64,000 nucleotides of DNA from Prevotella sp. GTDB lineage: Bacteria; Bacteroidota; Bacteroidia; Bacteroidales; Bacteroidaceae. Of the stretch, positions 34,143 to 50,794 are shown one piece after another. The stretch's first letter is position 1, and every line of letters starts with the position of its first letter. The position numbers and the translations under genes were made by a program. Location: assembly GCA_017442825.1 (NCBI GenBank), contig JAFRYZ010000005.1, positions 51,004-115,003 on the forward strand, written 5' to 3'. Below the pieces are notes generated by a model. The model searched no databases and was not told the DNA's origin. It was given only the letters and a program-made list of their open reading frames with translations.

Positions 34143-34174
34143 TTTGGCTTTTCGCTCACTTAATCGTATCTTTG
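34143..34174 (+). promoter_or_regulatory. Tandem promoter copy 1 upstream of fadD
   Basis: TTTG 34143-34146, 20 nt, TATCTTTG 34167-34174. Its downstream 21 bp (34154-34174) are repeated exactly at 34231-34251. Confidence 0.75.
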
Positions 34175-34219: not shown

Positions 34220-34251
34220 TTTGGTTTTGTGCTCACTTAATCGTATCTTTG
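34220..34251 (+). promoter_or_regulatory. Tandem promoter copy 2 upstream of fadD
   Basis: TTTG 34220-34223, 20 nt, TATCTTTG 34244-34251, 26 nt before the fadD start. Same 21-bp core as copy 1, 77 bp apart. Confidence 0.8.
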
Positions 34252-36086: not shown

Positions 36087-36098
36087 ATTGATAATTCT

Positions 36099-36160
36099 TG
36101 CGCCGCTTCGCTCTGCAAGTGCTACGCGATTACACAATTCACAATTAATAATTCACAATT
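36099..36160. repeat. Dispersed repeat abutting the prfB start
   Basis: CGCCGCTTCGCTCTGCAAG-type sequence followed by AATTCACAATT repeats that run into the prfB start codon. Related copies: 37453-37483, 38149-38196, 39970-40045. Confidence 0.7.
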
Positions 36161-37271
36161 GATTACACAAGACCAACTGAAAGACATATTGGATAGGGCT
36201 GATGCCTTGCATCGCTATCTGAACATACCACAGAAGCAGGTGGAGTTTGAGGAAGAACAATTGCGGACTCAGGCTCCAGACTTTTGGGACGACCCGGCAC
36301 GTGCTCAGGCGCAGATGAAGAAGGTGAAGGGGATAGAGAAATGGCTAACGGGTTACAAAGAGGTGCGCACTCTCGCCGATGAACTGCAGCTGGCGTTTGA
36401 CTTCTACCATGAGGATATGGTGACCGAAGGAGAGGTGGATGCTGATTATGCCAAAGCTCTGAAAGCCATAGAAGACCTAGAACTGAAGAACATGCTGCGG
36501 CAGGAAGAGGACCCGATGGACGCGGTGCTGAAAATTAACTCCGGTGCCGGTGGCACAGAGAGCCAGGACTGGGCGCAGATGCTCATGCGCATGTATATGC
36601 GATGGGCTGAGGCTCACGGTTACAAGGTTACCATTTCCAATCTTCAGGAAGGCGACGAGGCAGGCATCAAAAGTGTCACGATGGAGATTGAAGGTGGCGA
36701 GTTTGCCTATGGCTTCCTCAAGAGCGAGAACGGTGTCCACCGGTTGGTGCGGGTCAGTCCGTTTAATGCTCAAGGTAAGCGTATGACGAGTTTCGCTTCT
36801 GTCTTCGTCACACCGCTGGTCGATGACACCATTGAGGTGTATGTCGATCCAGCCAAACTGTCGTGGGACACGTTCCGTAGCAGCGGTGCAGGCGGGCAGA
36901 ATGTCAACAAGGTGGAGTCGGGCGTACGACTGCGCTATTGGTACACCGACCCCGATACCGGCGAAGAAGAGGAAATCCTCATCGAGAATACCGAGACGCG
37001 CGACCAACCGAAGAACAAGGAGAAGGCTTTGTTGCTGTTGAAATCGCAACTCTACGACCGAGCCATGAAGAAACGCCTGGAGGCACAGGCAAAGATAGAG
37101 GCTTCGAAAAAGAAAATAGAGTGGGGCAGTCAAATCCGTTCTTATGTCTTCGACGACAAACGCGTGAAAGACCACCGCACCAACTACCAGACTTCGGATG
37201 TCGATGCCGTTATGGACGGTAAACTCGATGGCTTTATCAAAGCTTATCTGATGGAGGAAGGGGAAAATTGA
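36159..37271 (+). CDS. prfB: Peptide chain release factor 2
   Basis: RF2 releases peptides at UGA/UAA. 370 aa. Stop-codon recognition SPF is present (RVSPFNAQ), and the catalytic GGQ lies in SSGAGGQNVNKVES. The frame runs from TTG at 36159 (MITQDQLKDIL) without the programmed +1 frameshift found in E. coli and many other bacteria. No ATG fits the conserved N-terminus; TTG is the best start and lies at the end of an AT-rich repeat. Confidence 0.92.
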   Translation: MITQDQLKDILDRADALHRYLNIPQKQVEFEEEQLRTQAPDFWDDPARAQAQMKKVKGIEKWLTGYKEVRTLADELQLAFDFYHEDMVTEGEVDADYAKALKAIEDLELKNMLRQEEDPMDAVLKINSGAGGTESQDWAQMLMRMYMRWAEAHGYKVTISNLQEGDEAGIKSVTMEIEGGEFAYGFLKSENGVHRLVRVSPFNAQGKRMTSFASVFVTPLVDDTIEVYVDPAKLSWDTFRSSGAGGQNVNKVESGVRLRYWYTDPDTGEEEEILIENTETRDQPKNKEKALLLLKSQLYDRAMKKRLEAQAKIEASKKKIEWGSQIRSYVFDDKRVKDHRTNYQTSDVDAVMDGKLDGFIKAYLMEEGEN

Positions 37272-37300
37272 TAATTCACACTAAAATAAATAAAAACACT

Positions 37301-37444
37301 ATGAACGAAACAACTAAAGCAAAGAAAGCTGCTTATCAGAAAAAGCAGGAAGCACAAGGAAAGAAAGTAGTAAACTGGATTTTCGGTGTATTGTTGGTAC
37401 TTGCCATCATCTTCGCCGTCTATTCCGTGTTTATTGTGAGTTGA
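37301..37444 (+). CDS. 47-aa single-pass membrane protein
   Basis: A short ORF, ATG at 37301 to TGA at 37442-37444. The first half is very basic (KAKKAAYQKKQEAQGKK), the second half one hydrophobic segment (VVNWIFGVLLVLAIIFAVYS). N-in topology is predicted from the positive charges. It lies 29 nt after prfB and before a CYTH gene. The function is unknown; the codon pattern and clean TM segment support a real gene. Confidence 0.7.
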   Translation: MNETTKAKKAAYQKKQEAQGKKVVNWIFGVLLVLAIIFAVYSVFIVS

Positions 37445-37495
37445 GAGTCTAGAGTTCTTTGCAAGCAAAGCGCTTCACGATTAGAGAGTCTGGAA

Positions 37496-37990
37496 ATGAG
37501 TGGACTGGAGATAGAACGCAAGTTCTTGGTGCATAAGCGCATGGACTGGAAGGCGCAGGCTTTTGCCAGCAGCCGCATCCAGCAGGGATACATGGCTGCC
37601 GTCAACACCGTTCGTGTGCGCACTCGTGACGACAAAGCCTTCCTCACCATTAAGGGACCTTCGCGCGACGGTTTGTCACGCTATGAGTTTGAGAAAGAAA
37701 TTACCATGGATGAGGCACGGCAGCTGTTGCCACTCTGTGAACCGGGCATCATCGACAAAACACGCTATCTCGTACGTTGCGGTGACCACGTTTTCGAGGT
37801 TGATGAGTTCTATGGCGACAACGAAGGACTGGTAATGGCTGAGGTGGAGCTGCAAAGTGCCGACGAAAGCTTTGAAAAGCCAGAATTCATCGGAATGGAA
37901 GTAACCGGCGACGGTCGCTTCTACAATCGGCAGATGCGCCGCAACCCCTTCCGCCTTTGGCGCGACAACCTGCCAGAAGAATACAGATAA
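37496..37990 (+). CDS. CYTH domain protein (triphosphate tunnel metalloenzyme)
   Basis: 164 aa. The N-terminal EIERKFLV is the ExExK signature; TVRVRTRDDKAFLTIKGP and KTRYLVRCGDHVFEVDEFYG supply further tunnel residues. Bacterial members of this size hydrolyse tripolyphosphate or related triphosphates; adenylate cyclase activity (CyaB type) is less likely. Its last 104 nt overlap the convergent VanZ ORF. Confidence 0.92.
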   Translation: MSGLEIERKFLVHKRMDWKAQAFASSRIQQGYMAAVNTVRVRTRDDKAFLTIKGPSRDGLSRYEFEKEITMDEARQLLPLCEPGIIDKTRYLVRCGDHVFEVDEFYGDNEGLVMAEVELQSADESFEKPEFIGMEVTGDGRFYNRQMRRNPFRLWRDNLPEEYR

Positions 37991-38453
37991 ACGAACCCAA
38001 AGCACAGCCAAGGACATCGGCAAAGAAGTCTATCCAGTCACCACTGCGGGTGCCACCTGTGCAGTAGGCTTGCACCAATTCCAACAAACCACCCATGAGG
38101 GAGGGGAGGAGGAGGGAGTAAATTAATAATTGACATTTTTTTAACAAGCGAAGCGTCTTCGTCGATTGCTTGCTCTGCAAGCGTTTCGCGATTATGGTCT
38201 TTGGCTTTTGACCTTCGACCTTCAGCCTTTGACTTTTGAGTTTCAACCTTTGCCCTTTGGTCTTCGACCTCAGCCTTTCGTAGGCAATGACGATGCTTAG
38301 TACGAGGTACATGACGATGTGCGTCCACTTGTCCATCATGCTTACATGACTGAGCGGAGTCTCTGGAATGGGGACGATACAGATTACCCAGATAACGGCA
38401 ACGAGCATCGTTGTCAAAGGATATTTACTGATAAAAGAGATTATTTTCTGCAT
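37887..38453 (-). CDS. VanZ-like membrane protein with repeat insertion
   Basis: 188 aa. Conserved VanZ blocks are split: KYPLTTMLVAVIWVICIVPIP and MDKWTHIVMYLVLSIVIAYE lie before, and GGLLELVQAYCTGGTRSGDW with IDFFADVLGCALGSFI after, a ~45-aa Lys/Gln/Arg-rich insertion (~63-107). The insertion is encoded by dispersed and heptamer repeats. The tail after the last membrane segment runs 104 nt into the CYTH gene, suggesting loss of the original stop. VanZ-family function is poorly defined. The start at 38453 is set by the -7 box at 38505-38512. Confidence 0.75.
   Translation of the reverse strand: MQKIISFISKYPLTTMLVAVIWVICIVPIPETPLSHVSMMDKWTHIVMYLVLSIVIAYERLRSKTKGQRLKLKSQRLKVEGQKPKTIIAKRLQSKQSTKTLRLLKKCQLLIYSLLLPSLMGGLLELVQAYCTGGTRSGDWIDFFADVLGCALGSFICILLAGCRAKGGRGCGASADCRSDRRRLLPFR
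38133..38279. repeat. Dispersed repeat and TCAAAGG heptamer tract inside the VanZ gene
   Basis: 38149-38196 carries the GCTCTGCAAGCGTTTCGCG-type repeat. 38196-38279 read on - is a run of 7-bp units such as TCAAAGG, TCGAAGG, CTGAAGG, TCAAAAG. Confidence 0.75.
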
Positions 38454-38504
38454 CTTTTCTTCTTCTATTGTCGCATTTTTCGCATCTTTTCTTTTAATAT
38501 GCTG

Positions 38505-38532
38505 CAAAAGTAGATAATTTTTTATACTTTTG
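38505..38532. promoter_or_regulatory. Symmetric divergent promoter, VanZ / NSS transporter
   Basis: CAAAAGTA (38505-38512, -7 box for the - strand) and TACTTTTG (38525-38532, -7 box for +) form an 8-bp inverted pair 12 bp apart. Neither has a good TTTG at -33. The NSS leader after it contains GGGATagaATCCC and TATAGG...CCTATA hairpins. Confidence 0.65.
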
Positions 38533-38592
38533 CAACCGTTATAGGGATAGAATCCCCGTTTGGTCCTATATATAAATAGGTGTAACTTTTTT

Positions 38593-39954
38593 ATGAAACA
38601 GACAGACAGAGGAAGTTTCGGAAGCAAGTTGGGTGTCGTCCTGGCTACGGCAGGTAGTGCCGTCGGACTGGGCAATGTGTGGCGTTTCCCCTATATGGCA
38701 GGAGAGAACGGCGGAGCTGTCTTCATCATCATTTACATTGCCTGCGTCCTGGTGTTGGGACTGCCGTGTATGGTTAGCGAGTTCATCATCGGCAGACATG
38801 CCGCCTCCAATACTGCCCGTGCCTACACCAAGCTCTCCAACGGCACGGCATGGAAGTGGGTAGGTTATCTGGGAGTGCTCACAGGCTTTCTTATTACCGG
38901 TTATTACGGTGTCGTGGCAGGTTGGTGTCTGCAATACGTCTATGCCTCTGTAGCCGGTCAACTGCATGGCAGTCCGCAGTTCTTCGACCAGTATTTTGCT
39001 GTTTTCAGCTCAGACCCATGGCAGCCCATATTGTGGCTCTGCGTCTTTTTCGGCATCACCCACTTCGTCATCATCCACGGAGTGCGCAACGGCATCGAAC
39101 GAGCCTCCAAAATCCTCATGCCCTTGCTGTTTGTCCTGTTGCTGTTTATCGTTGTCGCCTCGTGCATGCTGCCTGGTGCCTCCGCAGGCATTGATTTCCT
39201 GTTTAAGCCCGACTTCTCCAAGATGACCAGCGACGTCTTCCTCGGCGCCCTCGGACAGTCGTTCTATTCGCTGAGCATCGCCATGGGATGCATCTGTACC
39301 TATGCCTCCTACTTCAGCCGTCAGACCAACCTTTCCAATTCAGCCGTGCAGATAGGCCTCATCGACTCGATGGTAGCCATCCTAGCCGGACTCATGATAT
39401 TCCCTGCCGCCGCCTCCGTAGGTGTGCGCCCAGACAGTGGTCCTTCGCTCATCTTCATCACCCTGCCCAACGTCTTCGAACAAGCCTTTGTTTCGATGCC
39501 CATCGTGGGCTTCTTCATCTCCCTGATGTTCTATGCCCTCCTGGCGTTGGCTGCCCTCACCTCGCTGATATCCCTTCATGAGGTGAGCACGGCATTCTTC
39601 CAAGAAGAGCTCAAGACCACCCGCAACCGCGCAGCTTGGATAGTCACCGTTACCTGTTGGGTTGTCGGAGTGTTCTGTTCCATGTCCCTGGGTCAGTGGA
39701 GTTTCCTCTCCATCGATGGCAAGAGCCTGTTCAGCCTCTTCGACTTCGTCACGGGTCAGATATTCCTGCCCATCGGCGGTTTCCTCACCTGCCTGTTCAT
39801 TGGTTGGTTTGTACCGAAACAACTTGTCAAAGACGAATATACCAACTGGGGCACATTGCGCGGTAGACTGTTCAGGGTTTATCTCTTTCTGGTGCGCTTT
39901 GTCTGTCCTGTAGCCATTGCTGCTATCTTCCTCCACCAATTTGGTGTGGTTTGA
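38593..39954 (+). CDS. Sodium-dependent NSS-family amino acid transporter 1
   Basis: 453 aa, LeuT/SNF fold with ~11-12 membrane segments. The N-terminal block ATAGSAVGLGNVWRFPYMAG contains the Na+/substrate unwound TM1 motif. VRPDSGPSLIFITLPNVF and IGWFVPK near the C-terminus are typical of bacterial NSS. Substrate probably an aromatic or aliphatic amino acid. The start at 38593 gives the standard KQTDRGSFGSKLG N-terminus. A paralogue follows. Confidence 0.93.
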   Translation: MKQTDRGSFGSKLGVVLATAGSAVGLGNVWRFPYMAGENGGAVFIIIYIACVLVLGLPCMVSEFIIGRHAASNTARAYTKLSNGTAWKWVGYLGVLTGFLITGYYGVVAGWCLQYVYASVAGQLHGSPQFFDQYFAVFSSDPWQPILWLCVFFGITHFVIIHGVRNGIERASKILMPLLFVLLLFIVVASCMLPGASAGIDFLFKPDFSKMTSDVFLGALGQSFYSLSIAMGCICTYASYFSRQTNLSNSAVQIGLIDSMVAILAGLMIFPAAASVGVRPDSGPSLIFITLPNVFEQAFVSMPIVGFFISLMFYALLALAALTSLISLHEVSTAFFQEELKTTRNRAAWIVTVTCWVVGVFCSMSLGQWSFLSIDGKSLFSLFDFVTGQIFLPIGGFLTCLFIGWFVPKQLVKDEYTNWGTLRGRLFRVYLFLVRFVCPVAIAAIFLHQFGVV

Positions 39955-39969
39955 GAGATGAGAGTTTAG

Positions 39970-40045
39970 AGTCCTTCGCTAGCGAAGCGCTTCGCGGTTA
40001 CTTGTGCCGCTTCGCTCTGCAAGCGAGCAAAGCTCGAACGAGAGT
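39970..40045. repeat. Dispersed palindromic repeat between NSS genes
   Basis: TTCGCTAGCGAAGCGCTTCGCGG, then GCCGCTTCGCTCTGCAAG and GAGCAAAGCTCGAACGAGAG. Short GAGAGTTTAGAGT direct repeats flank it and also appear at 41449-41500. Confidence 0.7.
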
Positions 40046-40060
40046 AGAGAGTTTTTAGAG

Positions 40061-41410
40061 ATGAAAAGGGCAAATTTTGGAAAATTAGGAGTCATCCTGG
40101 CTACGGCAGGTTCAGCAGTAGGACTCGGCAACATCTGGCGTTTTCCCTATATGACGGGTGAGAATGGTGGTGCTGCCTTCATCCTTGTCTATATCGTCTG
40201 TGTCTTCATGTTGGGCATTCCCGGCATGATAGCTGAATTTGTCGTCGGTCGTCATGGTGCTGCCAATGCCGCCCGTGCCTATGGCAGAATGACGCGTCGC
40301 CGTTCCTGGGGCCTCATCGGCTACATGGGTGTGTTCACCGCCATGATCATCCTTGGTTTTTATGCCGTTGTTGCCGGCTGGTGCCTGCAATACCTCTATG
40401 CCTCCGTTGCCGGTCAGGTGCAGGGCGATACGGCTTTCGTCTCCGACTATTTTTCCACTTTCTCCTCCCATCCCCTTTATCCATCGCTGTGGGCAGTAGC
40501 CTTCATCCTGCTTACCCATTTTGTCGTCACCCGTGGTGTGCGCAACGGCATCGAGCGTGCCTCCAACCTCCTCATGCCCACCCTGCTGTTCCTGTTGTTG
40601 GTCATCGTCGTCGCCTCGTGCATGTTGCCCGGAGCCTCGGCTGGCATTGAGTTCCTGTTTAAACCCGACTTCTCCAAGCTGTCGTCTCGCGTCTTTCTAG
40701 AAGCCCTCGGACAAGCTTTCTTCTCGTTGAGTCTTGGCACAGCATGTCTCTGCACCTACGCCTCCTACTTCAGCCGTAAGATCAACCTTGCTGCCTCAGC
40801 CCTGCAGATTGCTTTGCTCGATTGTGTGATAGCCATCCTTGCCGGACTCATGATATTCCCTGCAGCTGCTTCCGTTGGTGTGCGCCCCGATAGCGGTCCT
40901 TCGCTCATTTTCATCACTCTGCCCGCTGTCTTCACACAAGCCTTTGCTGCCGTGCCAGTCGTGGGCTACATCATCTCCGTGCTCTTCTACGCCATTTTGG
41001 CGCTGGCAGCCCTCACCTCCACCATCTCCATGCACGAGATAGGTACTGCCTTCTTCCGCGAAGAGTTGAGACTGAGCCGTCGGCAGGCAGCCTTCATTGT
41101 CACCCTCGTGTGCAGCCTGCTCGCCGTAGCCTGCTCGTTGTCCACGGGAGCTGTACCCCAGTTGCAAGTCTTCGGTACGTCGCTTATGGAATTCTGCGAC
41201 GGTCTCACCGCCAACCTCCTGCTGCCTCTTGGCAGTCTTCTCACCTGCCTCTTCCTCGGCTGGGTGGTCCCTCGTCGGATAGTCAAAGACGAGTTCACCA
41301 ACTGGAACTCCGTCTGCCGTTGCCTCTATCCCTATTGGCTCGTTGCCGTTCGCTACGTCTGTCCTGTAGCCATCGCCGCCATTTTCCTCCATCAACTGGG
41401 AGTGATTTGA
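40061..41410 (+). CDS. Sodium-dependent NSS-family amino acid transporter 2
   Basis: 449 aa, clearly paralogous to the preceding gene across its length (ATAGSAVGLGNIWRFPYMTG; CMLPGASAGIEFLFKPDFSK; VRPDSGPSLIFITLPAVF). Tandem duplication is likely. The start at 40061 (MKRANFGKLG) is chosen over an upstream in-frame ATG inside the repeat. Substrate not predictable; divergence between the copies suggests different preferences. Confidence 0.93.
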   Translation: MKRANFGKLGVILATAGSAVGLGNIWRFPYMTGENGGAAFILVYIVCVFMLGIPGMIAEFVVGRHGAANAARAYGRMTRRRSWGLIGYMGVFTAMIILGFYAVVAGWCLQYLYASVAGQVQGDTAFVSDYFSTFSSHPLYPSLWAVAFILLTHFVVTRGVRNGIERASNLLMPTLLFLLLVIVVASCMLPGASAGIEFLFKPDFSKLSSRVFLEALGQAFFSLSLGTACLCTYASYFSRKINLAASALQIALLDCVIAILAGLMIFPAAASVGVRPDSGPSLIFITLPAVFTQAFAAVPVVGYIISVLFYAILALAALTSTISMHEIGTAFFREELRLSRRQAAFIVTLVCSLLAVACSLSTGAVPQLQVFGTSLMEFCDGLTANLLLPLGSLLTCLFLGWVVPRRIVKDEFTNWNSVCRCLYPYWLVAVRYVCPVAIAAIFLHQLGVI

Positions 41411-41521
41411 GAGAGCCACCAGCCCCATGAAGGGGGAGCCTTAGAGTTGAGAGTCTAGAGTTTATAGTTTAGAGATGAGAGTTTAGAGTATATAGTATAG
41501 AGAAAAACGGAAGCTGGAATT

Positions 41522-42460
41522 ATGAACCTGAAAGAGTTTTTCTATTTTCGCAAGTCCGACAGCCGCGTGCTGCTGTTCTTGTTTACCATCGCTGTCATCG
41601 TCGTGGCAGTCATGATGTTGTTCGATAACCGTGGGGAGACGACGGCCTTGACGGCACAGGATTCTATCGACAACCAGATGCTAGGGGGAAAAAGGAGTGC
41701 CGATTATGGTGACAGGAGGAAAGGGCATGGAAGTTATTCCTCAAACCGTTACCTCCACTATGCTACTGAGGGCAGACCTATCGCACTGGCACCCTTCGAC
41801 CCCAACCGTGCCGACAGCACCCAGCTGTTGCGCCTGGGCTTCGCCCCGTGGCAGGTGCGCAGCATCTACCGCTATCGGGCGAAAGGAGGCGTCTTCCGGA
41901 CACCTGAAGATGTGGCACACATATATGGAGTGACGAAAGAGCAATACGAAACCTTGCGCCCCTATATCCGCATCTCCGACGACTATCAACTGGCAGCACA
42001 CTATGTCGCACCATCTGAACGTTATGTCAAAACGCCGCGCGACTCGGTGAAATACCCTGTTAAGGTGGCACCAAACGAGAAAATCGTTCTCAATACTGCC
42101 GACACTACCCAGTTGAAGCGTGTTCCGGGTATCGGCAGCGGATGGGCTCGACAGATATTCAACTATGGTAAGCTGCTGGGCGGCTATGTTGATATAGCCC
42201 AGCTCACCGAGATAGAAGGCTTTCCCGATGAGGCGCTGTCCTATTTCGTCATAGACCATCCCCATCCGCAGAAGATGAATCTCAACAAACTCTCCCTGAA
42301 CCAGCTGCGCCGCCATCCCTACATCAACTTCTACCAAGCACGCGCCATCTGCGACTACCGCCGTCTGAAAGGTCCCTTGCAGAGTCTCAGTCAACTCCGC
42401 CTGCTCAACGACTTCACTCCTACTGCCATCGAACGCCTGCAACCCTATGTGGAGTTCTGA
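41522..42460 (+). CDS. Helix-hairpin-helix protein, membrane-anchored
   Basis: 312 aa. One N-terminal membrane segment (VLLFLFTIAVIVVAVMMLF) precedes several ComEA-type HhH motifs: FDPNRADSTQLLRLG...; LNTADTTQLKRVPGIGSG; MNLNKLSLNQLRRHPYI. ComEA-like proteins bind DNA without sequence preference, often during uptake. Here the anchor suggests a periplasmic-facing DNA-binding role, but no competence genes are nearby. Confidence 0.88.
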   Translation: MNLKEFFYFRKSDSRVLLFLFTIAVIVVAVMMLFDNRGETTALTAQDSIDNQMLGGKRSADYGDRRKGHGSYSSNRYLHYATEGRPIALAPFDPNRADSTQLLRLGFAPWQVRSIYRYRAKGGVFRTPEDVAHIYGVTKEQYETLRPYIRISDDYQLAAHYVAPSERYVKTPRDSVKYPVKVAPNEKIVLNTADTTQLKRVPGIGSGWARQIFNYGKLLGGYVDIAQLTEIEGFPDEALSYFVIDHPHPQKMNLNKLSLNQLRRHPYINFYQARAICDYRRLKGPLQSLSQLRLLNDFTPTAIERLQPYVEF

Positions 42461-42464
42461 AAAA

Positions 42465-42596
42465 TGGTCGGAGGACGACCACAGTATGGTATTCAAAATA
42501 CCGCATATTGGTCCGTGAGAGACCATGTGTTGGTACGGACAGTACCACAGGCTGGTACAAGGAATACCAAACTGTGGTATCGTTTTTGATACGACG
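42465..42596. repeat. Six-unit 22-bp tandem hairpin array
   Basis: Units start at 42465, 42487, 42509, 42531, 42553 and 42575, exactly 22 bp apart. Each follows TGGTNN - 5-nt loop - NNACCA - 5-nt spacer. The two N positions co-vary to keep pairing: TGGTCG/CGACCA, TGGTAT/ATACCG, TGGTCC/AGACCA (5 bp), TGGTAC/GTACCA, TGGTAC/ATACCA (5 bp). The sixth is degenerate (GGTATC...GATAC). Loops and spacers are unrelated in sequence. It begins 4 nt after the HhH stop codon. It lacks identical repeats, so it is not a CRISPR. Confidence 0.85.
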
Positions 42597-42672
42597 GCAT
42601 CATTTTACTGCAATGAACGCCTTCTTGCATGCACAACATATACATAGAATTTATAAAAGGCGGAAATATCTG

Positions 42673-42735
42673 CCATATCTGCAACAATCGTTGATTATCA
42701 GGCGGTTACGAGTGGCAGATGGGTGGCAGATATGG
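42673..42735. repeat. Inverted repeat in the gap before the NSS remnant
   Basis: CCATATCTGC (42673-42682) and GCAGATATGG (42726-42735), with extra ATATCTGC/GGCAGAT copies around them. Nothing else is recognisable in 42597-42862. Confidence 0.6.
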
Positions 42736-42862
42736 TAAATGTTTTTTACTTTATCAGTTTGTTAACCCCTTTCTTAACAGATTTTATACATATTTTGGGC
42801 GAAAGATTTCCTTTTCTCTCTCCTTTGAAAATGTTAAAAGGGGAAAATAAACAGAGTTTTAT

Positions 42863-42894
42863 GTTGTGGAATTTTTCATTTCTTTTTATCTTTG
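42863..42894 (+). promoter_or_regulatory. Promoter of the NSS remnant / NRPS
   Basis: TATCTTTG at 42887-42894 with GTTG (one mismatch to TTTG) 20 nt upstream; ATG of the remnant is at 42902. It is the only promoter found upstream of the NRPS gene. Confidence 0.65.
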
Positions 42895-42901
42895 TAGCTA
42901 A

Positions 42902-43231
42902 ATGTGGCTGGAACCCGCTGCAGGTCTTGTGTCGATGCAGCTTGGAAAAGTCTTCGACCATACCAAGGAGGAGTATTTCCGAGTGCCGTTGGAACAGGGG
43001 CAGTCGCACTGGAGCGAGCCCTACAAGGACATAGTTGGCGCCAACACGCTGGTCACCGACATCCTGATACCCGTCGGCGCCATGGGCATGGCATTGTTTA
43101 CCGGATGGTTCGTTCCGAAGGCAAGGTATCAAGGCTCACGCCTGGGCACATTCATCTATCTGTTCATCCTGCGCTGGCTCGTACCCATAGCCCTCATCAT
43201 TATTTTCCTTAATTCCCTGAATATCATATAA
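42902..43231 (+). pseudogene. C-terminal remnant of a third NSS transporter
   Basis: 109-aa open frame. The last ~60 residues (LIPVGAMGMALFTGWFVPKA...LRWLVPIALIIIFLNSLNII) align with the end of the two NSS proteins upstream (IGGFLTCLFIGWFVPKQ...VCPVAIAAIFLHQFG). The other ~10 membrane segments are missing; upstream DNA is non-coding. The frame remains open and has a promoter, so a two-segment membrane peptide may still be made. It lies 43 nt before the NRPS start. Confidence 0.75.
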
Positions 43232-43274
43232 ACCTTATATCACCATTGTATTTATCTTAAAACTATTTAGAAGT

Positions 43275-46200
43275 ATGAAAACTGCAACATTATCAAAAAT
43301 CCAATATGGCATCTATGCCGAGTGTGTTGCCCATAAGGGAGAGACCTGCTATAACATTCCCTATATGTTTGTGCTCGATGGTAGCTTGGACGAAGAAAAA
43401 CTAAAGAAGGCTATTGAGACTGCCGTAGCTGCTCATCCCACCCTCTTTACCCGCATCGCACTGAACGAGCAGGGCGACCCCATACAAACCCTCGACTCCA
43501 GCGAGACGTTTTCGTTGAGCGTCGAGCCCTATGACGCATCCATTTCACAGTCGCTCGTCGTCCCCTTCGACATTGTCAACGACCGGCTCTTTCACATCCG
43601 GTTGCTGAAAGATGCTGAGCATTTCTATCTCCTGCTCGACATCCACCACATCATTGGCGACGCCATTACGCTGAAGGTGATGCTTGCCGACATAGAAGCT
43701 GCTTACTACGGCAAGGCGCTGGAGCCCGAGACGATGACGATGATGGACGTTGCCATCGCCGACGCCGAGAAGCGTCAGACACCTGCCTTCGAGGAAGGTA
43801 AGCAATGGTATGCCCAGAACTTCGACTGTGGCGACACATCAACCCTGCTCATTCCCGACCTGGAAGGTACGGAACGCACGGAGGCAAACGCCATTCGTAT
43901 GCTTAGCGTTGACAAGGAAAAGATAGAGACTTTCTGCAAGTCCAACGGCATCTATAAGAACACGCTCTTCCTGTCAGCTTACGCCTATCTTCTGGCGAAG
44001 TTCAACAACGAGCAGGAAGCGTTGTTTACTACGGTCTATAACGGACGTAACGACCAACGACTCGCTCATACTGTGGGTATGACGGTGAAGATTCTACCCG
44101 TTTATGCTAAGTTCACCAACGACACTTCTGTGATGGACTTCATGAAAGCTTGTCAGGAGCAGAATACAGGCTGTCGCGAACACGACGTCTATACCTATCC
44201 AGACCTGATGGCTGACCTCAACCTGCAAAGCAACTCTATGTTTGCGTGGCGAGGAAGCCTGTTTGTTGACACACAACTGATGGGCAAGCCCATGCAGACC
44301 ATACAACTCTGCAACCACACTCTGGAAGTGCCGCTTTGTATGATGGTCTATACCATCGGCAGCCAATATCAACTCCGGGCAGAATATGATGCCAGTGCCT
44401 ATTCCGAAGCACTCATCAGTGAGTTCATGGAGAGTTATGAGGCTGCCCTAAATGGCTTCCTCAGCGAAACCACCCTCTGCGACATTGACATCACTACGAC
44501 TTCGCAAGTAGCGACCCTCGACAACTTCAACCAGACAGACGAACCCTATGACGACATGCAGACCATTGTGTCGTTGTTCCGCCAGCAGGTAAAAGCTACA
44601 CCTGAGAATATCGCTGTAGTCTATAAGGATAAGAAATATACCTATGCCGATGTGGATTCCATCAGCGACCGCATAGCAGGGTATATATGGTCAAAGGTTA
44701 AAGGTCAAAGGTCAAAGGACGATGTTCAAAGGAAAGAGGTTGTAGTATCTATTCTTATCCCCCGCTGCGAGTGGATGGCCATTGCCTCTATGGGAGTTCT
44801 GAAGGCAGGATGTGCCTACCAACCCCTTGACCCGTCGTACCCGAAGGAGCGCCTGAACTTCATGATGCAAGATGCAAATGCCCAATTGCTAATTGCTGAC
44901 GAGGAACTGCGACCCATCGTCGACGAATATCAAGGTGAGGTGCTGTTGACAAGAGATATCGATAAACTTCCTAATAATCCTAATAATCCGAATACTCCGA
45001 TTTCTCCGAATAATCTTTTCATCCTCCTTTACACCTCAGGTTCCACAGGCGTACCTAAGGGGTGCCAGTTGGAGCACCGCAATCTGGTGGCATTCTGCCA
45101 TTGGTATCAACGCTATTACAGTTTGAAACCCGAACACAATGTGGCAGCCTACGCCAGCTACGGCTTCGATGCCTGCATGATGGACATGTATCCTGCGCTG
45201 ACCTGTGGTGCCACGGTATATATCATCCCCGAGGAACTGCGTCTCGACCTCATAGCCCTCAACGACTACTTCGAGCAGAACAAGATAACCCATTCGTTTA
45301 TGACCACGCAGGTGGGCTATCAGTTTGCCACAAGCATCGAGAACCACTCACTGCTTCACCTCTCAACGGGAGGCGAGAAGCTGGCTTCCATGACACCACC
45401 CACCAATTATCATTTCTATAACGCATATGGACCGACAGAGTGTACCATCTACACAACCGCCTATTTAGTGGATAAGAAGTTGAAGGAGATACCCATCGGT
45501 AAACCTCTCGACAACATGCATCTCTATATCGTTGACCCACAGGGGCACCGTCTGCCTGTAGGAGCTGCCGGAGAATTGTGGATCAGTGGTCCACAGGTAT
45601 CTCGAGGTTACCTGAATCGTCCGGAAAAGACAGCAGAAGTGTATATCCAGAATCCGTTCACCGACAACGACAAGTATGCGCGCGTTTATCGTTCTGGAGA
45701 TATCGTGCGCTACCTCCCTTCTGGTGATATCCAGTTCGTAGGACGTCGCGACGGTCAGGTAAAGATTCGCGGTTTCCGCATCGAGCTGAAAGAAGTGGAA
45801 GCAGTCATACGCGAGTTCCCTGGCATCAAGGACGCTACCGTGCAGGCCTTTGACGAAGAGGGTGGAGGAAAGTTTATTGCTGCCTACATCGTCAGCGATG
45901 AGCAGGTGGACATCGAGGCTTTGAACAGCTTCATCCTCGACCAGAAACCACCATACATGGTGCCTGCCGTAACCATGCAGATTGAGGCTATTCCGCTGAA
46001 CCAGAACCAGAAGGTAAACAAGAAAGCCTTGCCAAAGCCAGAGAAGAAAGCCGCCATTGATGAAGTGGAAACCAACGTACCCATGAACGTACTGGAGAAG
46101 GAAATCCACGACATCATCGCACAAATTATCAACAACGAGGAGTTTGGCATAACAACGATACTGGGCTACGCCGGTCTTACATCTATCATGGCCATCAAAC

Positions 46201-49200
46201 TGGCTATACAGATTAACAAGCGTTTCGGCATAACCTTAGACTCAAAGGCTCTTGCCAAGACAGGCAGTGTGCAAAGCATAGAGAACGAGATATTGACAAT
46301 GCTGATGAGTGGCAACGCCACCACACAGCAGGCAGGCGCGACGGAGCATGCCGATATGAGCAACATCCCGCTTTCATACGCACAGATGGGTGTTTATGTG
46401 GACTCTATTAAGACCCCCGAGTCAACCATCTACAACACACCGCTCTACGCCCGCTTCCCTAAGAATGTGGACATCAAGCAGTTGGTCAACGCAGTGGAGA
46501 CGCTCATCAAGATGCACCCTATGCTGCAAGCTCACTTCGGAAGTGCAGGAGCAGACATCATCCAGATTGTGGACCCCAACCAGCCTATCGAGATTACCCA
46601 AAGTCAGCGCAAGGAGTCAGACATGCCTCAATATAGGTATGAGTTTATCATACCCTTCAACCTGAGACAAGGTCCGCTCTATCACATAGAGATTGTAACT
46701 ACAGAGGAGTGGGTATATCTGATGATGGACATCCATCACCTCGTTATCGACGGTGGATCATTCGACGTGCTGCTGTCGCAACTGTTCGATTTGCTCAACG
46801 GCAAGGAGATCGAGCCCGAAAGCTTCACCTATGCCGACTTCGTGGCTGCACAGAAAGCTGCTGAGAGTAGCGAGGAATATGCTGCTGCACGCGACTTCTT
46901 CCAAGCACGCTTAGGCAACATCGAAGGTGTAACAGAGGTTCCGACAGACCTTACTAACCCAGTAGATCAAGGTAAGGTAGGAACAGTATATTGTCCTCTG
47001 GACTTCGAGGCTATCGACGCCTTCTGCCGCCAGCACAATATCTCTCCGGCACACCACATCCTTGCTGCTACCTTCTATGCACTGTCACGTTTTACCAACA
47101 ACGAACAGCTGTGCATCACCACCATCAGCAACGGACGTTCCGACCTGCGCATCAGCAATACGGTAGGTATGTTCGTCAATACGCTGGCACTGAGTGCCGA
47201 GATTGGTGATCAGACAGTCCTTGAGTTCCTTAACGAAACAAGCAAGAACTTCGACGAGACCCTGCAACACGAGGCATACCCGTTTGCGCGTATCGCTGCC
47301 GACTACGACCTCTCCGCAGAAATACTTTTCGCCTATCAGATGGGCATCATCGCCGACTTTAAGTACAAAGGGCAGACGGTTACCATAGATACTTTCGAAA
47401 CGGATACACCCAAGTTCCGTATCGCCTTCTTTATCATGAACGACCCGTTGGGTAAACCGAGCGTTTGTCTGCAATACGACAATGGTCGCTACAGTCAAGA
47501 AACAATGCAGTGTCTGGCACAGTCCATCTGCAATGCCACGAATGCCTTCATGCGTCAGCCGGAGGCAGCCATACAAAGCATATCATTACTCGACGTCCAA
47601 CAGACCTCTTTGCTCGACAGCTTCAACGATACTGAGGTGCCTTACGACGACACCCAGACTGTCGTATCGCTGTTCCGTCGTCAGGTGCAGCTGACGCCAG
47701 ACAATATGGCTGTGGTCTATCACGACAACAAATACACATATCGCGAGGTGGACGACCTGTCGGAGCGCATCGCAACACTTCTCGTCGGCAAGGGGCTTGG
47801 CAAAGAGGATGTGGTATCTATTATCATTCCTCGTTGCGAGTGGATGCCTATAGCTGCACTTGGTGTGCTGAAGGCAGGATGTGCCTACCAGCCTCTCGAC
47901 CCAAGCTATCCGCAGGAGCGTTTGAACTTCATGATTAAGGATGCTGCAGCCAAACTGCTCATCGCCGACGAGTCGTTACGCGACATGGTGAGCGAATACA
48001 ACGGTGAGGTACTGCTGACAAAGGATATCAAGCAGTTGCCGGTAGCCAGCAAGCCCGTTGATGTTACACCTAACCCCGCTGACCTGTACATCCTCCTCTA
48101 CACTTCGGGCTCAACAGGTCTGCCAAAGGGTTGTCAGCTGGAGCATCATAACCTTGCCGCGTTCTGTCATTGGTATCAGCGTCGCTTTGAGCTGAAAGCC
48201 GAGCATCACGTATCATGCTACGCAAGCTACGGCTTCGACTGCTGTATGATGGACCTTTACCCGGCGCTGACCTGTGGTGCCTGCGTATATATAATAGGTG
48301 ATGACATTCGTTTGACATTGCCTGAGGTGAATGCTTATTTCGAGGAGAACCACATCACCCACTCATTTATGACTACGCAGGTGGCATATCAGTTTGCTAC
48401 CAACTATGACAACCACTCGCTGTTGCACCTGATTGCAGCAGGTGAGAAGTTGGCATCACTGGCTCCTCCAAAGAACTTCAAGATGCACAACGGCTATGGA
48501 CCTACGGAGGGTACTATCCTCATCACAGAATATGAGGTAGATAAGGAGCTGAAGGACATTCCTGTGGGTAAGCCGCTGGACAACTCGCGCCTGTATATCG
48601 TTGACAAGCAGTTCAACCGTCTGCCACAGGGAGCCTTAGGTGAGCTATGGATTAGCGGTCCTCACGTTACCAGAAGCTACCTCAACCGTCCGGAGAAGAC
48701 TGCTGAAGTATATATCAATAATCCTTTCAGTGACGATCCTAAGTTCTCTCGTATCTATCGCACCGGTGACATCGTGCGCTATCAGCCTGATGGCAACATC
48801 CAGTTCGTAGGTCGTAAGGACGGTCAGGTGAAGATTCGCGGTTTCCGCATCGAGCTGAAAGAAATTGAGGCTGTTATCCGCCAGTATCCTGGCATAAAGG
48901 ATGTCACCGTACAGGCATTCGACTATGATAATGGTGGCAAGTTCGTTGCTGCCTATATCGTCAGCGATGAACAGGTGGACATCAAGGAACTGAATGCCTT
49001 CATCGGCAAGCAGAAACCTTCATATATGATTCCGGTAGCTACCATGCAGATTGACAGCATACCGCTGAACCAGAATCAGAAGGTGAACCGCAAGGCACTG
49101 CCTACTCCTGTCATCCAGGCTGCCGACCACGAATATGTGGAGCCTGCGGGCGATGTTGAGAAACTCTTCTGTAAGATTTTCAGCGACATCTTGTCGATGG

Positions 49201-50561
49201 ATAAGATTGGTGCTACCGACAACTTCTTCGAGTTGGGCGGCACCTCACTCATGGTGACTCGCGTCATCATCGAAGCCGACAAGAACGGACATCATATCGC
49301 CTACGGTGACGTGTTTGCCAACCCCACCCCGCGACAGCTATCCAACTTCATCTCCGGTGGCGCTAACGACGAGGACGAAGAAGCCCGTAACTACAACTAC
49401 GGCGCCATCAATACCCTTCTCGAAGAAAATACCCTCGATGCCTTCCTTGGTGGAGAGCGCCAACCCATCGGCAATGTGCTGTTGACAGGAGCAACAGGCT
49501 TCTTGGGTATACATATCCTCCAGGAACTCATCGAGCGCGATGACGTGCCCGTCATTTGGTGCTTGGTTAGAGGCGAGGACGACGAGAAAGCCGAGCGACG
49601 CCTGAAGAGTCTGATGTTCTATTACTTCAACAAGAACTACAACCAACTCTTCGGCAACCGTCTGCGCATCATCAACGGTGACGTAACACAAGACATTAAG
49701 GTCGATGGCAAGATTGATACTGTCTTCAACTGTGCCGCTGTGGTGAAACATTTCTCTAAAGGCACTGAAATCGAGGATGTCAATGTAGGTGGAGCGCTCA
49801 ACTGCGTGAAGTTCTGTCTGCTCAACAATGCACGACTTATTCACGTTTCAACCTACAGTACGGCAGGAATGTCCGTTGACGGCATCCCCGCAGAAGACTC
49901 CATCTATACCGAGCAGAAACTCTATTTCGGTCAGAACCTCGGCAACCAGTACATCCACTCCAAGTTCATCTCCGAGCGCATCGTGCTCGATGCCGTAGCC
50001 TTGCACAAGCTCAACGCCAAGATCATGCGCGTAGGTAATTTGGCACCACGCTCTACCGACGGCGAGTTCCAAATCAACTTCAACACGAATAGCGCCATGG
50101 GTCGCATCCGCGTCTATCAGATGCTGGGCTGCTACCCCTATGCCATTAACGACGAACCGATGGAGTTCACTCCCATCAACGAAGTTGCCAAAGCCATCGT
50201 CCTGCTTTCGGAGACTCCACAGGAATGTTGCGTGTTCCATCCCTTCAACAACCATTTTGTGCATTTCGGCGATGTGCTTCAAGAACTTTCACTCGTCACG
50301 CAAGGACCCCGTCAGGTAGAAGCCGACGAGTTCAACAACGAATTGGAGGCTGCAAAGCAAGACCCCGAAAAGGCCAAGCGTCTTTCCAGCCTTTTGGCTT
50401 ACCAAGATATGGCTCATGGACAGAAAGTCATCGAGATTCCGAGTGAAAACCAATACACCACACAAGTGCTGTATCGTCTCGGCTTCCGTTGGTCGCCCAC
50501 TTCGTGGAACTATGTTGACCAGATGCTCACCGCCATAGCAGGTTTCGGCTTCTTTGAGTAA
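43275..50561 (+). CDS. Two-module NRPS with terminal thioester reductase
   Basis: 2428 aa, domains C-A-PCP-C-A-PCP-R. C1 has HHIIGD (H124-D129); A1 has YTSGSTGVPKG (~586), NAYGPTE, RSGDIVRY and NQKVNKKALPK; PCP1 carries Ser970 (AGLTSI). C2 has HHLVIDG (H1154-G1160); A2 has YTSGSTGLPKG (~1609); PCP2 carries Ser1991 (LGGTSL). The reductase has GATGFLG (~2072) and YIHSK (Y2226, K2230). An N-terminal condensation domain suggests the first amino acid is N-acylated; the reductase should release an aldehyde (or alcohol). Pocket residues in order read roughly D-A-M-F-L-T-A-I-Y for A1 and D-C-M-F-L-A-G-I-L for A2, matching no code I know. No phosphopantetheinyl transferase or exporter is adjacent. Confidence 0.95.
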   Translation: MKTATLSKIQYGIYAECVAHKGETCYNIPYMFVLDGSLDEEKLKKAIETAVAAHPTLFTRIALNEQGDPIQTLDSSETFSLSVEPYDASISQSLVVPFDIVNDRLFHIRLLKDAEHFYLLLDIHHIIGDAITLKVMLADIEAAYYGKALEPETMTMMDVAIADAEKRQTPAFEEGKQWYAQNFDCGDTSTLLIPDLEGTERTEANAIRMLSVDKEKIETFCKSNGIYKNTLFLSAYAYLLAKFNNEQEALFTTVYNGRNDQRLAHTVGMTVKILPVYAKFTNDTSVMDFMKACQEQNTGCREHDVYTYPDLMADLNLQSNSMFAWRGSLFVDTQLMGKPMQTIQLCNHTLEVPLCMMVYTIGSQYQLRAEYDASAYSEALISEFMESYEAALNGFLSETTLCDIDITTTSQVATLDNFNQTDEPYDDMQTIVSLFRQQVKATPENIAVVYKDKKYTYADVDSISDRIAGYIWSKVKGQRSKDDVQRKEVVVSILIPRCEWMAIASMGVLKAGCAYQPLDPSYPKERLNFMMQDANAQLLIADEELRPIVDEYQGEVLLTRDIDKLPNNPNNPNTPISPNNLFILLYTSGSTGVPKGCQLEHRNLVAFCHWYQRYYSLKPEHNVAAYASYGFDACMMDMYPALTCGATVYIIPEELRLDLIALNDYFEQNKITHSFMTTQVGYQFATSIENHSLLHLSTGGEKLASMTPPTNYHFYNAYGPTECTIYTTAYLVDKKLKEIPIGKPLDNMHLYIVDPQGHRLPVGAAGELWISGPQVSRGYLNRPEKTAEVYIQNPFTDNDKYARVYRSGDIVRYLPSGDIQFVGRRDGQVKIRGFRIELKEVEAVIREFPGIKDATVQAFDEEGGGKFIAAYIVSDEQVDIEALNSFILDQKPPYMVPAVTMQIEAIPLNQNQKVNKKALPKPEKKAAIDEVETNVPMNVLEKEIHDIIAQIINNEEFGITTILGYAGLTSIMAIKLAIQINKRFGITLDSKALAKTGSVQSIENEILTMLMSGNATTQQAGATEHADMSNIPLSYAQMGVYVDSIKTPESTIYNTPLYARFPKNVDIKQLVNAVETLIKMHPMLQAHFGSAGADIIQIVDPNQPIEITQSQRKESDMPQYRYEFIIPFNLRQGPLYHIEIVTTEEWVYLMMDIHHLVIDGGSFDVLLSQLFDLLNGKEIEPESFTYADFVAAQKAAESSEEYAAARDFFQARLGNIEGVTEVPTDLTNPVDQGKVGTVYCPLDFEAIDAFCRQHNISPAHHILAATFYALSRFTNNEQLCITTISNGRSDLRISNTVGMFVNTLALSAEIGDQTVLEFLNETSKNFDETLQHEAYPFARIAADYDLSAEILFAYQMGIIADFKYKGQTVTIDTFETDTPKFRIAFFIMNDPLGKPSVCLQYDNGRYSQETMQCLAQSICNATNAFMRQPEAAIQSISLLDVQQTSLLDSFNDTEVPYDDTQTVVSLFRRQVQLTPDNMAVVYHDNKYTYREVDDLSERIATLLVGKGLGKEDVVSIIIPRCEWMPIAALGVLKAGCAYQPLDPSYPQERLNFMIKDAAAKLLIADESLRDMVSEYNGEVLLTKDIKQLPVASKPVDVTPNPADLYILLYTSGSTGLPKGCQLEHHNLAAFCHWYQRRFELKAEHHVSCYASYGFDCCMMDLYPALTCGACVYIIGDDIRLTLPEVNAYFEENHITHSFMTTQVAYQFATNYDNHSLLHLIAAGEKLASLAPPKNFKMHNGYGPTEGTILITEYEVDKELKDIPVGKPLDNSRLYIVDKQFNRLPQGALGELWISGPHVTRSYLNRPEKTAEVYINNPFSDDPKFSRIYRTGDIVRYQPDGNIQFVGRKDGQVKIRGFRIELKEIEAVIRQYPGIKDVTVQAFDYDNGGKFVAAYIVSDEQVDIKELNAFIGKQKPSYMIPVATMQIDSIPLNQNQKVNRKALPTPVIQAADHEYVEPAGDVEKLFCKIFSDILSMDKIGATDNFFELGGTSLMVTRVIIEADKNGHHIAYGDVFANPTPRQLSNFISGGANDEDEEARNYNYGAINTLLEENTLDAFLGGERQPIGNVLLTGATGFLGIHILQELIERDDVPVIWCLVRGEDDEKAERRLKSLMFYYFNKNYNQLFGNRLRIINGDVTQDIKVDGKIDTVFNCAAVVKHFSKGTEIEDVNVGGALNCVKFCLLNNARLIHVSTYSTAGMSVDGIPAEDSIYTEQKLYFGQNLGNQYIHSKFISERIVLDAVALHKLNAKIMRVGNLAPRSTDGEFQINFNTNSAMGRIRVYQMLGCYPYAINDEPMEFTPINEVAKAIVLLSETPQECCVFHPFNNHFVHFGDVLQELSLVTQGPRQVEADEFNNELEAAKQDPEKAKRLSSLLAYQDMAHGQKVIEIPSENQYTTQVLYRLGFRWSPTSWNYVDQMLTAIAGFGFFE
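44691..44732 (+). repeat. TCAAAGG heptamer tract inside NRPS A1
   Basis: Six consecutive 7-bp units: TCAAAGG, TTAAAGG, TCAAAGG, TCAAAGG, ACGATGT, TCAAAGG. They encode SKVKGQRSKDDVQR at residues 473-486, absent from the equivalent place in A2. Confidence 0.85.
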
Positions 50562-50715: not shown

Positions 50716-50721
50716 CCAAGG

Positions 50722-50794
50722 TCGGGATGAGGCGACTCGAACGCCCGACCCCTACGTCCCGAACGTAGTGCGCTACCAACTGCGCTACATCCCG
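50722..50794 (-). tRNA. tRNA-Pro (anticodon CGG)
   Basis: 73 nt. Acceptor CGGGATG/CATCCCG plus discriminator A, D stem GCGC/GCGC with AGTTGGTA loop, anticodon stem CTACG/CGTAG with loop TTCGGGA (anticodon CGG, reads CCG), T arm GGGCG-TTCGAGT-CGCCT. CCA is not encoded. Confidence 0.95.

Follow-up and report, generated by a model that had tools for sequence, protein, structure and literature searches.

A predicted dipeptide-aldehyde synthetase of mosaic ancestry in Prevotella and the partner-switch genes that adjoin its relatives

Nonribosomal peptide synthetases (NRPSs) that end in a thioester reductase (R) domain include AusA (NF047350; PDB 4f6l), which has no first condensation (C) domain and whose type of R domain releases aldehydes. 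Human gut clusters with the order C-A-T-C-A-T-R (A, adenylation domain; T, carrier domain), which we associate with Guo et al. 2017, reportedly make N-acyl dipeptide aldehydes and pyrazinones. Peptide aldehydes as a class are potent protease inhibitors. Here we analyse an NRPS gene in a 64,000-nucleotide stretch of a Prevotella sp. genome (contig JAFRYZ010000005.1, positions 51,004 to 115,003; hereafter the window). The encoded enzyme shares with AusA an A-PCP-C-A-PCP-R core (PCP, peptidyl carrier protein) and a homologous R domain. Its domain order and predicted chemistry match those of the human gut clusters, to which it is likened by description only; its relatives are Bacteroidales with record titles that point to ruminants, unlike the human gut clusters.

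Dipeptide aldehydes are described from human gut Ruminococcus and Blautia (PMC10039858, PMC8518294), and ruminopeptin is given as an N-acylated Leu-Glu aldehyde (PMC8518294); the passages concerned have no bearing on the window locus. A synthetase with similar surroundings is mru0068 of the archaeon Methanobrevibacter ruminantium M1. In the passages devoted to it, mru0068 has two C-A-T modules, and its last domain is called a thioesterase in the main text and a thioester reductase in a supplement legend (Leahy et al. 2010, PMC2812497). Its flanks hold two serine phosphatases, an anti-sigma factor antagonist and a MatE exporter, and a cluster of phosphopantetheinyl transferase (PPTase), STAS, phosphatase and kinase genes lies elsewhere in the M1 genome (PMC2812497). 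As far as those passages describe them, the mru0068 flanking genes resemble those of the window's relatives, whereas the window NRPS itself is without them.

The window NRPS, read from one open reading frame (ORF), comprises the following parts (aa, amino acids; dN/dS, ratio of non-synonymous to synonymous substitution rates).

43275..50561, + strand: NRPS gene, ATG start, 2428 aa, C-A-PCP-C-A-PCP-R (ORF call, Pfam, TIGR01733)
43275..44549, + strand: C1, initiating condensation domain, aa 1-425 (Pfam Condensation, PDB relatives, dN/dS)
43644..43664, + strand: C1 active-site motif HHIIGDA, deviating from HHxxxDG (motif alignment)
44550..46049, + strand: A1 adenylation domain, aa 426-925, pocket DAMFSGAIYK, motif-anchored (Pfam, motifs)
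46077..46304, + strand: PCP1, aa 935-1010, serine within AGLTSIM (Pfam, motifs)
46350..47624, + strand: C2 condensation domain, aa 1026-1450, HHLVIDG intact (Pfam, motifs)
47625..49109, + strand: A2 adenylation domain, aa 1451-1945, pocket DCMFIAGILK, motif-anchored (Pfam, motifs)
49122..49364, + strand: PCP2, aa 1950-2030, serine within LGGTSLM (Pfam, motifs)
49392..50558, + strand: R, terminal thioester reductase, aa 2040-2428, GATGFLG and YIHSK (Pfam, motifs, PDB match)

The C-A-PCP-C-A-PCP-reductase order that the original prediction placed at 43275..50561 is exact. In Pfam searches, Condensation, AMP-binding, AMP-binding_C and PP-binding each match two stretches, and NAD_binding_4 (reductase) matches one at the C-terminus, so that ordered C, A and PCP modules and a terminal R lie in one protein. 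The amino acid adenylation model TIGR01733 reaches 756 bits, where its cut-off is 317, far beyond chance. A scan of genome collections found 342 related stretches, of which 79 loci were kept (numbered L004 and so on). The protein alignment has 79 rows, window included, with 10 of the 89 NRPS-cluster members (at most 2200 aa) omitted. Across these rows the core motifs of A1, A2, the PCPs, C2 and R are nearly invariant. In the window, motifs A3, A5, A7, A8 and A10 are all intact in A1 and A2, as are both carrier serines, HHLVIDG in C2, and GATGFLG and YIHSK in R. The expectation that all catalytic motifs would be intact is thus borne out for these domains, but C1 reads HHIIGDA. Within the protein, A1 and A2 are 69% identical, and C1 and C2 25%. 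The pocket positions, in the GrsA frame, were set by motif with an alignment to LgrA as guide. Codes that came out with a gap, DAQW-GCVAK and DMKY-GTVSK, are misaligned at the gapped position and were set aside. Apart from the D and K found generally at the first and last positions, neither pocket has a charged residue, a composition that suggests neutral, hydrophobic substrates. The codes are not unique: that of A1 occurs in 3 rows and that of A2 in 13, window included.

Reductive release of a dipeptide by the predicted R domain is well supported, because of the domain order and the intact R motifs. PCP2-R aligns over its full length with 6vtj/6vtz (E 5e-96, 38.7% identity, 325 bits) and also matches the AusA reductase 4f6l (E 6e-50, 173 bits). 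Since the R domain is akin to AusA-type R domains, we infer an aldehyde rather than an alcohol. Overall, we consider it probable that the window encodes a bimodular NRPS, recombinant, primed in trans and bereft of its local regulators, which makes a dipeptide aldehyde that is acylated or cyclises according to the state of C1. A PPTase encoded on another contig, C5, would prime PCP1 and PCP2 in trans; A1 and A2 would load two probably hydrophobic amino acids, C2 would join both residues, and R would reduce the PCP2-bound dipeptidyl thioester with NAD(P)H to the aldehyde. A working C1 would yield a linear N-acylated aldehyde, potentially a transition-state-type protease inhibitor. If C1 were disabled by HHxxxDA, the free amine and the aldehyde would condense to a cyclic imine (dihydropyrazinone), and in the anaerobic rumen the cyclised product may stay in that form. 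By analogy, the enzyme should work like the gut dipeptide-aldehyde synthetases and AusA. As for the peptide aldehyde maker originally proposed, reductive release stands and the aldehyde is likely, while N-acylation is less sure because C1 carries HHxxxDA and 4 of the 79 rows are without that part of C1.

Several points weigh against this reading. The C1 motif is not HHxxxDG, and the NF047350 aureusimine model scores 1121.7 bits on the window NRPS against a cut-off of 2500. Some R domains reduce to the alcohol, and sequence alone cannot separate aldehyde-forming from alcohol-forming R domains; an iron-type alcohol dehydrogenase gene lies just downstream of the NRPS in L010 and L041 and has no counterpart beside the window NRPS. 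A weak point is the presumed service of the C5 operon, described below, to the window NRPS. Finally, the source genome is a 2.31-Mb draft, 79% complete, in 69 contigs.

The C1 motif is HHxxxDG in 71 of the 79 rows; it ends in DA in the window and in L019 (HHLIADA), in DY in L057, and reads LHxxxDG in the second copy of L021. The motif region is absent from L017, L035, L039 and L055, where the rest of the gene is kept, and this N-terminal loss leaves an AusA-like layout. It is quite possible that C1 is effectively dead in the window too, so that the enzyme is AusA-like and a free dipeptide aldehyde cyclises to a dihydropyrazinone or pyrazinone, no N-acyl aldehyde being made. The altered motifs of the window and L019 and the four losses are consistent with this, as is the fact that AusA is the best whole-protein NCBIfam match. 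The change in the window is, however, a single base (codon GCC against GGC in L004) that turns only the G of the motif into A, and HH and D are retained. C1 is also constrained much like its neighbours, dN/dS against L004 being 0.098 for C1, 0.078 for A1 and 0.109 for early C2 (0.28 for PCP1, based on very few changes). Against L080, the late C2, A2, PCP2 and R give 0.03-0.05; all these values are only rough, because synonymous sites are close to saturation. The PDB relatives of the C1 stretch are C-domain proteins, best 2jgp. Hence the gene appears to be maintained by purifying selection, C1 included, and C1 as a pseudodomain finds no support in dN/dS, which shows no overall decay. The AusA PCP-R is about 29% identical to that of the window, whose NRPS has a C1, unlike AusA; on these comparisons the window NRPS is not AusA. 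The shortened genes of L039 and L055 begin with nearly identical DNA, though their remainders differ, so a single truncated start may have spread.

Returning to the aldehyde favoured above, we think it unlikely that the final product is a dipeptide alcohol, formed either by four-electron release on the R domain or by a separate cellular dehydrogenase acting on the aldehyde. The two dehydrogenase genes directly downstream of, and on the same strand as, related NRPSs would fit such a route, and the myxochelin MxcG model scores 671 bits on the window NRPS (cut-off 2300). Yet the window NRPS has no adjoining dehydrogenase gene of that type, and PCP2-R fits the AusA reductase better than that of MxaA (67 bits). 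The dehydrogenase-like genes lie at L010:17391-18551 and L041:17593-18753 (Pfam was run on the former); L029 holds a third member, which is on the opposite strand.

The ancestry of the gene changes along its length, within the following zone.

47232..47594, + strand: inferred recombination breakpoint zone, aa ~1320-1440, inside C2, L004-like before and L080-like after (sliding identity, clade tests)

DNA identity was followed in 60-codon steps against the first NRPS of L004 and against L080. To L004, it is 68-98% over aa 1-1320, 81% over aa 1321-1380 and 58-85% beyond, with at most 72% in 16 of the 18 steps past aa 1380. To L080, it is 54-72% over aa 1-420, 63-91% over aa 421-1320 and 79-88% from aa 1321 to the end. 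The R domain is 94% identical at the protein level to that of L080 and 59% to that of L004. Trees agree. In the tree of C1-A1-PCP1 (79 rows), the window groups with L004 (support 100), and a grouping with L080 is rejected (approximately unbiased test, p-AU 4e-5); in the tree of late A2-PCP2-R (31 of the 79 rows), it groups with L080 (support 97.9), and a grouping with L004 is rejected (p-AU 2e-28). These p-AU values are somewhat optimistic because the tested groups were picked after the identities were seen. Judged by identities and trees together, the window NRPS arose naturally by recombination between two rumen Prevotellaceae-type alleles. Discordant domain histories appear to be general in the family: for 53 of 79 rows, the closest relative in A1 is not the closest in A2; C1 and R disagree in this way in 43 of 70 rows, and A2 and R in 43 of 74. 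Close ties among near-identical rows may inflate these counts. In addition, the A2 pocket DCMFIAGILK is paired with three different R types. L004, L010, L012, L019, L020, L021, L042, L044 and L069 each hold two NRPS-cluster members, some of them partial; such paired copies in one locus are a likely substrate for recombination.

The flanks of the gene show a second kind of rearrangement.

38560..39954, + strand: SNF-family sodium symporter 1, common to L004 (Pfam)
40004..41410, + strand: SNF-family sodium symporter 2, common to L004 (Pfam)
41522..42460, + strand: HHH_3 (ComEA-like) gene, last intact one before the remnant, common to L004 (Pfam)
42864..42894, + strand: candidate Bacteroidota-type promoter TTG-N20-TATCTTTG, sole such site in 42461-43274
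42902..43231, + strand: remnant ORF, 109 aa, dCache sensor fragment (to ~43036) and SNF symporter C-terminal tail (~43037-43231) in fusion
50720..50794, - strand: tRNA-Pro(cgg), on the 3' side of the NRPS

The gene order from 34278 to 42460 is that of L004: an acyl-CoA ligase-like gene, a 370-aa gene (87% identical), CYTH, two SNF genes and HHH. Past the shared HHH gene, L004 has PP2C and STAS genes and then its NRPS; the window has the remnant ORF in their place. The first part of the remnant resembles the dCache sensor of PP2C regulators (54% identity to L016 over 52 aa, E 3e-14; its match to Pfam PF22673, E 3e-4, is under the cut-off of that model). The second part resembles the SNF C-terminal tail of L008, L013 and L016 (68-71% over 63 aa, E 2e-24 to 2e-25). 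In L016, PP2C, STAS, SNF and NRPS genes are consecutive, an order from which a deletion running from the sensor into the SNF gene would explain the fusion. The 9 kb before the window NRPS contain neither a PP2C nor a STAS gene, and the NRPS has no MATE or PPTase gene as a neighbour. As far as the remnant tells, the window NRPS has lost its own local switch genes by deletion. Calling it stand-alone was therefore right of its present surroundings, but the remnant shows that neighbouring genes were deleted. In other loci, the SNF gene beside the NRPS is internally deleted (L055:9670-9942, 91 aa; L011:9728-9982, 85 aa) or reduced to its tail (L019), as if it had been lost several times. A dehydratase gene inserted in the SNF gene of L055 and L011 was considered and rejected, since coordinates and ORFs show an internally deleted SNF gene.

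Sites of the form TTG-N20-TATCTTTG, the Bacteroidota-type promoter consensus used in the scan, number 15 on both strands of the window, against 2.6 ± 1.6 expected under a first-order Markov model. The AMP-binding (acyl-CoA ligase-like) gene at 34278 is preceded by two promoter-like sites, nearly identical to each other, at 34144-34174 and 34221-34251 (+ strand), with a spacing of 77 bases. Counts of sigma-70-like sites (13, against 9.2 ± 2.9 expected) and of terminator-like sites (8, against 7.5 ± 3.2) in the window were uninformative, and an Rfam scan returned tRNA only.

These losses could instead mark a decaying cluster in which the regulators are deleted, the C1 motif is damaged and the product is no longer made. 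The fused remnant, HHxxxDA in C1, the missing upstream switch genes and the lack of adjoining MATE and PPTase genes would all fit. We find this improbable: the 2428-codon frame is intact, its dN/dS is low and its other motifs are whole, the candidate promoter is kept, and a PPTase and a switch operon are present elsewhere in the genome. Weakest, and very unlikely, is the notion that the upstream fusion and the mosaic are chimeras of metagenome assembly: the draft is fragmented, and the upstream junction, sought in 59 other genomes, was matched in part in 4 and across both halves in none, but the mosaic lies within a single open frame about 15% divergent in DNA from both nearest relatives, discordant histories run throughout the family, and other assemblies (L011, L019, L055) also have an internally deleted or tail-only SNF gene immediately before the NRPS.

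The genes missing from the window are recurrent around its relatives. The set comprises a PDC/dCache-SpoIIE (PP2C)-HATPase_c_2 protein of ~730 aa, a 100-aa STAS protein, a ~450-aa beta-barrel protein, the NRPS and a MATE exporter, sometimes joined by a PPTase gene. Upstream genes were counted by tblastn in the 60 loci whose upstream sequence spans 6 kb or more, taking one NRPS per locus (the first in alignment order; for L004, its second copy). A STAS gene was found in 50 of these 60, STAS and PP2C genes together in 41, and neither in 10, window included. A count through called genes gave a PP2C or free HATPase gene in 47 of 58 loci. The STAS site reads SSG in 42 of 43 STAS rows. Among 36 genomes of the genus, own genome included, an NRPS match occurs in 8 of the 11 with a full-length PP2C/HATPase gene versus 2 of the 25 without (Fisher p 2e-4, in a test that ignores shared ancestry and counts distant NRPS matches). 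The association extends to other Bacteroidales families. MATE, NRPS, PP2C/HATPase, STAS and PPTase genes stand together in one (L109); an AcrB-type efflux pump, NRPS, STAS, PP2C/HATPase and a PPTase-like gene do so in another (L110). The partner switch thus adjoins NRPS relatives in three Bacteroidales families.

The window's own genome holds such a set in trans.

L095:14887-19450 (contig C5), - strand: operon of PPTase, dCache-PP2C-HATPase, STAS and beta-barrel genes

The operon, at the end of contig C5, encodes a PPTase (186 aa), a PDC/dCache-PP2C-HATPase protein (755 aa), a STAS protein (100 aa) and an Alginate_exp-type beta-barrel (459 aa). Sets homologous to it adjoin NRPS genes in relatives. 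Here, no NRPS stands beside it on the readable side, and the contig stops about 200 bases past the PPTase. PP2C/HATPase, STAS and PPTase genes are therefore all present in the genome of the NRPS, and this PPTase is the sole one detected in the draft. A second NRPS of 1460 aa, C-A-PCP-R by Pfam, lies at L091:6704-11083 (contig C61, - strand) and is predicted to release an (N-acyl) amino-aldehyde.

PP2C (SpoIIE), HATPase_c_2 and STAS domains are shared with switches of the RsbU/RsbV/RsbW type. In the window's relatives, by contrast, a dCache sensor precedes the phosphatase and kinase-like domains in one fused protein, and the genes adjoin an NRPS. Methanogenic archaea, to our knowledge, have no bacterial sigma factors. 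If the switch is an old controller shared with such an archaeon, it would act other than via a sigma factor. Literature joining an anti-sigma factor antagonist, a serine phosphatase and an NRPS yielded only PMC2812497; a second search gave, among the matches listed, one related case, TciR. As outlined in the passages on it, TciR (REC plus an RsbW-like domain) regulates indigoidine, the product of a single-module NRPS, and works with a histidine kinase in a host said there to lack RsbV (PMC12826045). The same passages state that RsbW-like proteins can have non-sigma targets and that for SypE/SypA no sigma-factor target is known (PMC12826045). TciR and indigoidine are thus a precedent, in a different arrangement, for an RsbW-like protein that controls an NRPS product. 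Tentatively, and with considerable doubt, we suggest that the sensor-linked PP2C/HATPase and STAS switch is an old dedicated controller of reductive dipeptide synthetases, with a non-sigma target, which in the window's lineage works in trans. The target might be the synthetase, its exporter or another protein; the peptide aldehyde would be gated or sensed, and shuffling of synthetase modules would change the signal or inhibitor of each strain.

The likeness to the archaeal system does not reach recent ancestry. The best PDB match of PCP2-R is the didomain 6vtj, which we take to be the archaeal one of Deshpande et al. 2021. It is about 39% identical to the PCP2-R of the window and falls outside all Bacteroidota rows in a tree that omits two rows (the over-long second copy of L021 and the short L073). 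Recent transfer between the window gene and the archaeal NRPS was rejected, the archaeal PCP-R being about equally far from all Bacteroidota rows; since it falls outside them, the archaeal NRPS shares only architecture and neighbourhood.

The window NRPS belongs to a large uncharacterised family. Of the record titles of the 79 loci, partly shortened, 15 give a ruminant animal or stomach chamber and 40 others carry the prefix RUG, presumably for rumen uncultured genomes. One locus, L011, is from a rumen isolate, Prevotella sp. tc2-28 (NZ_FNRE01000007.1). As far as the titles can be read, none mentions a human origin. The gut or oral commensal of medical interest that had been envisaged thus gives way to a different setting: with 55 of 79 loci under ruminant or RUG labels, the record titles of relatives point to ruminants and leave a human gut or oral setting unsupported. 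The source organism is probably a rumen bacterium. At E <= 1e-100, 66 of 200 genomes of the genus match, own genome included (27 of 86 in the near-complete subset), some of them via distant NRPSs only; at 1e-200, the order yields matches in 4 of 294 other genomes. Such matches and labels support a family that is patchy, mainly from the rumen and Prevotellaceae. In the survey data given for 8,160 rumen genomes, 5,346 NRPS clusters are mostly from Firmicutes, with 934 in Bacteroidaceae, and the Prevotella clusters that differ in expression between high- and low-feed-efficiency steers include NRPS clusters (PMC8241843). For a rumen Bacteroidales member, we found no described product in the literature, mostly open-access.

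About one third of the sampled genomes of the genus therefore carry a match. Agricultural targets include rumen proteolysis, ciliate proteases and methanogens, and the predicted aldehyde may act as a protease inhibitor. This kind of synthetase is itself already known; the interesting parts are the recombination and the recurrent partner switch. In its small, complete synthetases the family preserves a natural record of how modules recombine, of use for engineering, and the switch offers a testable control system.

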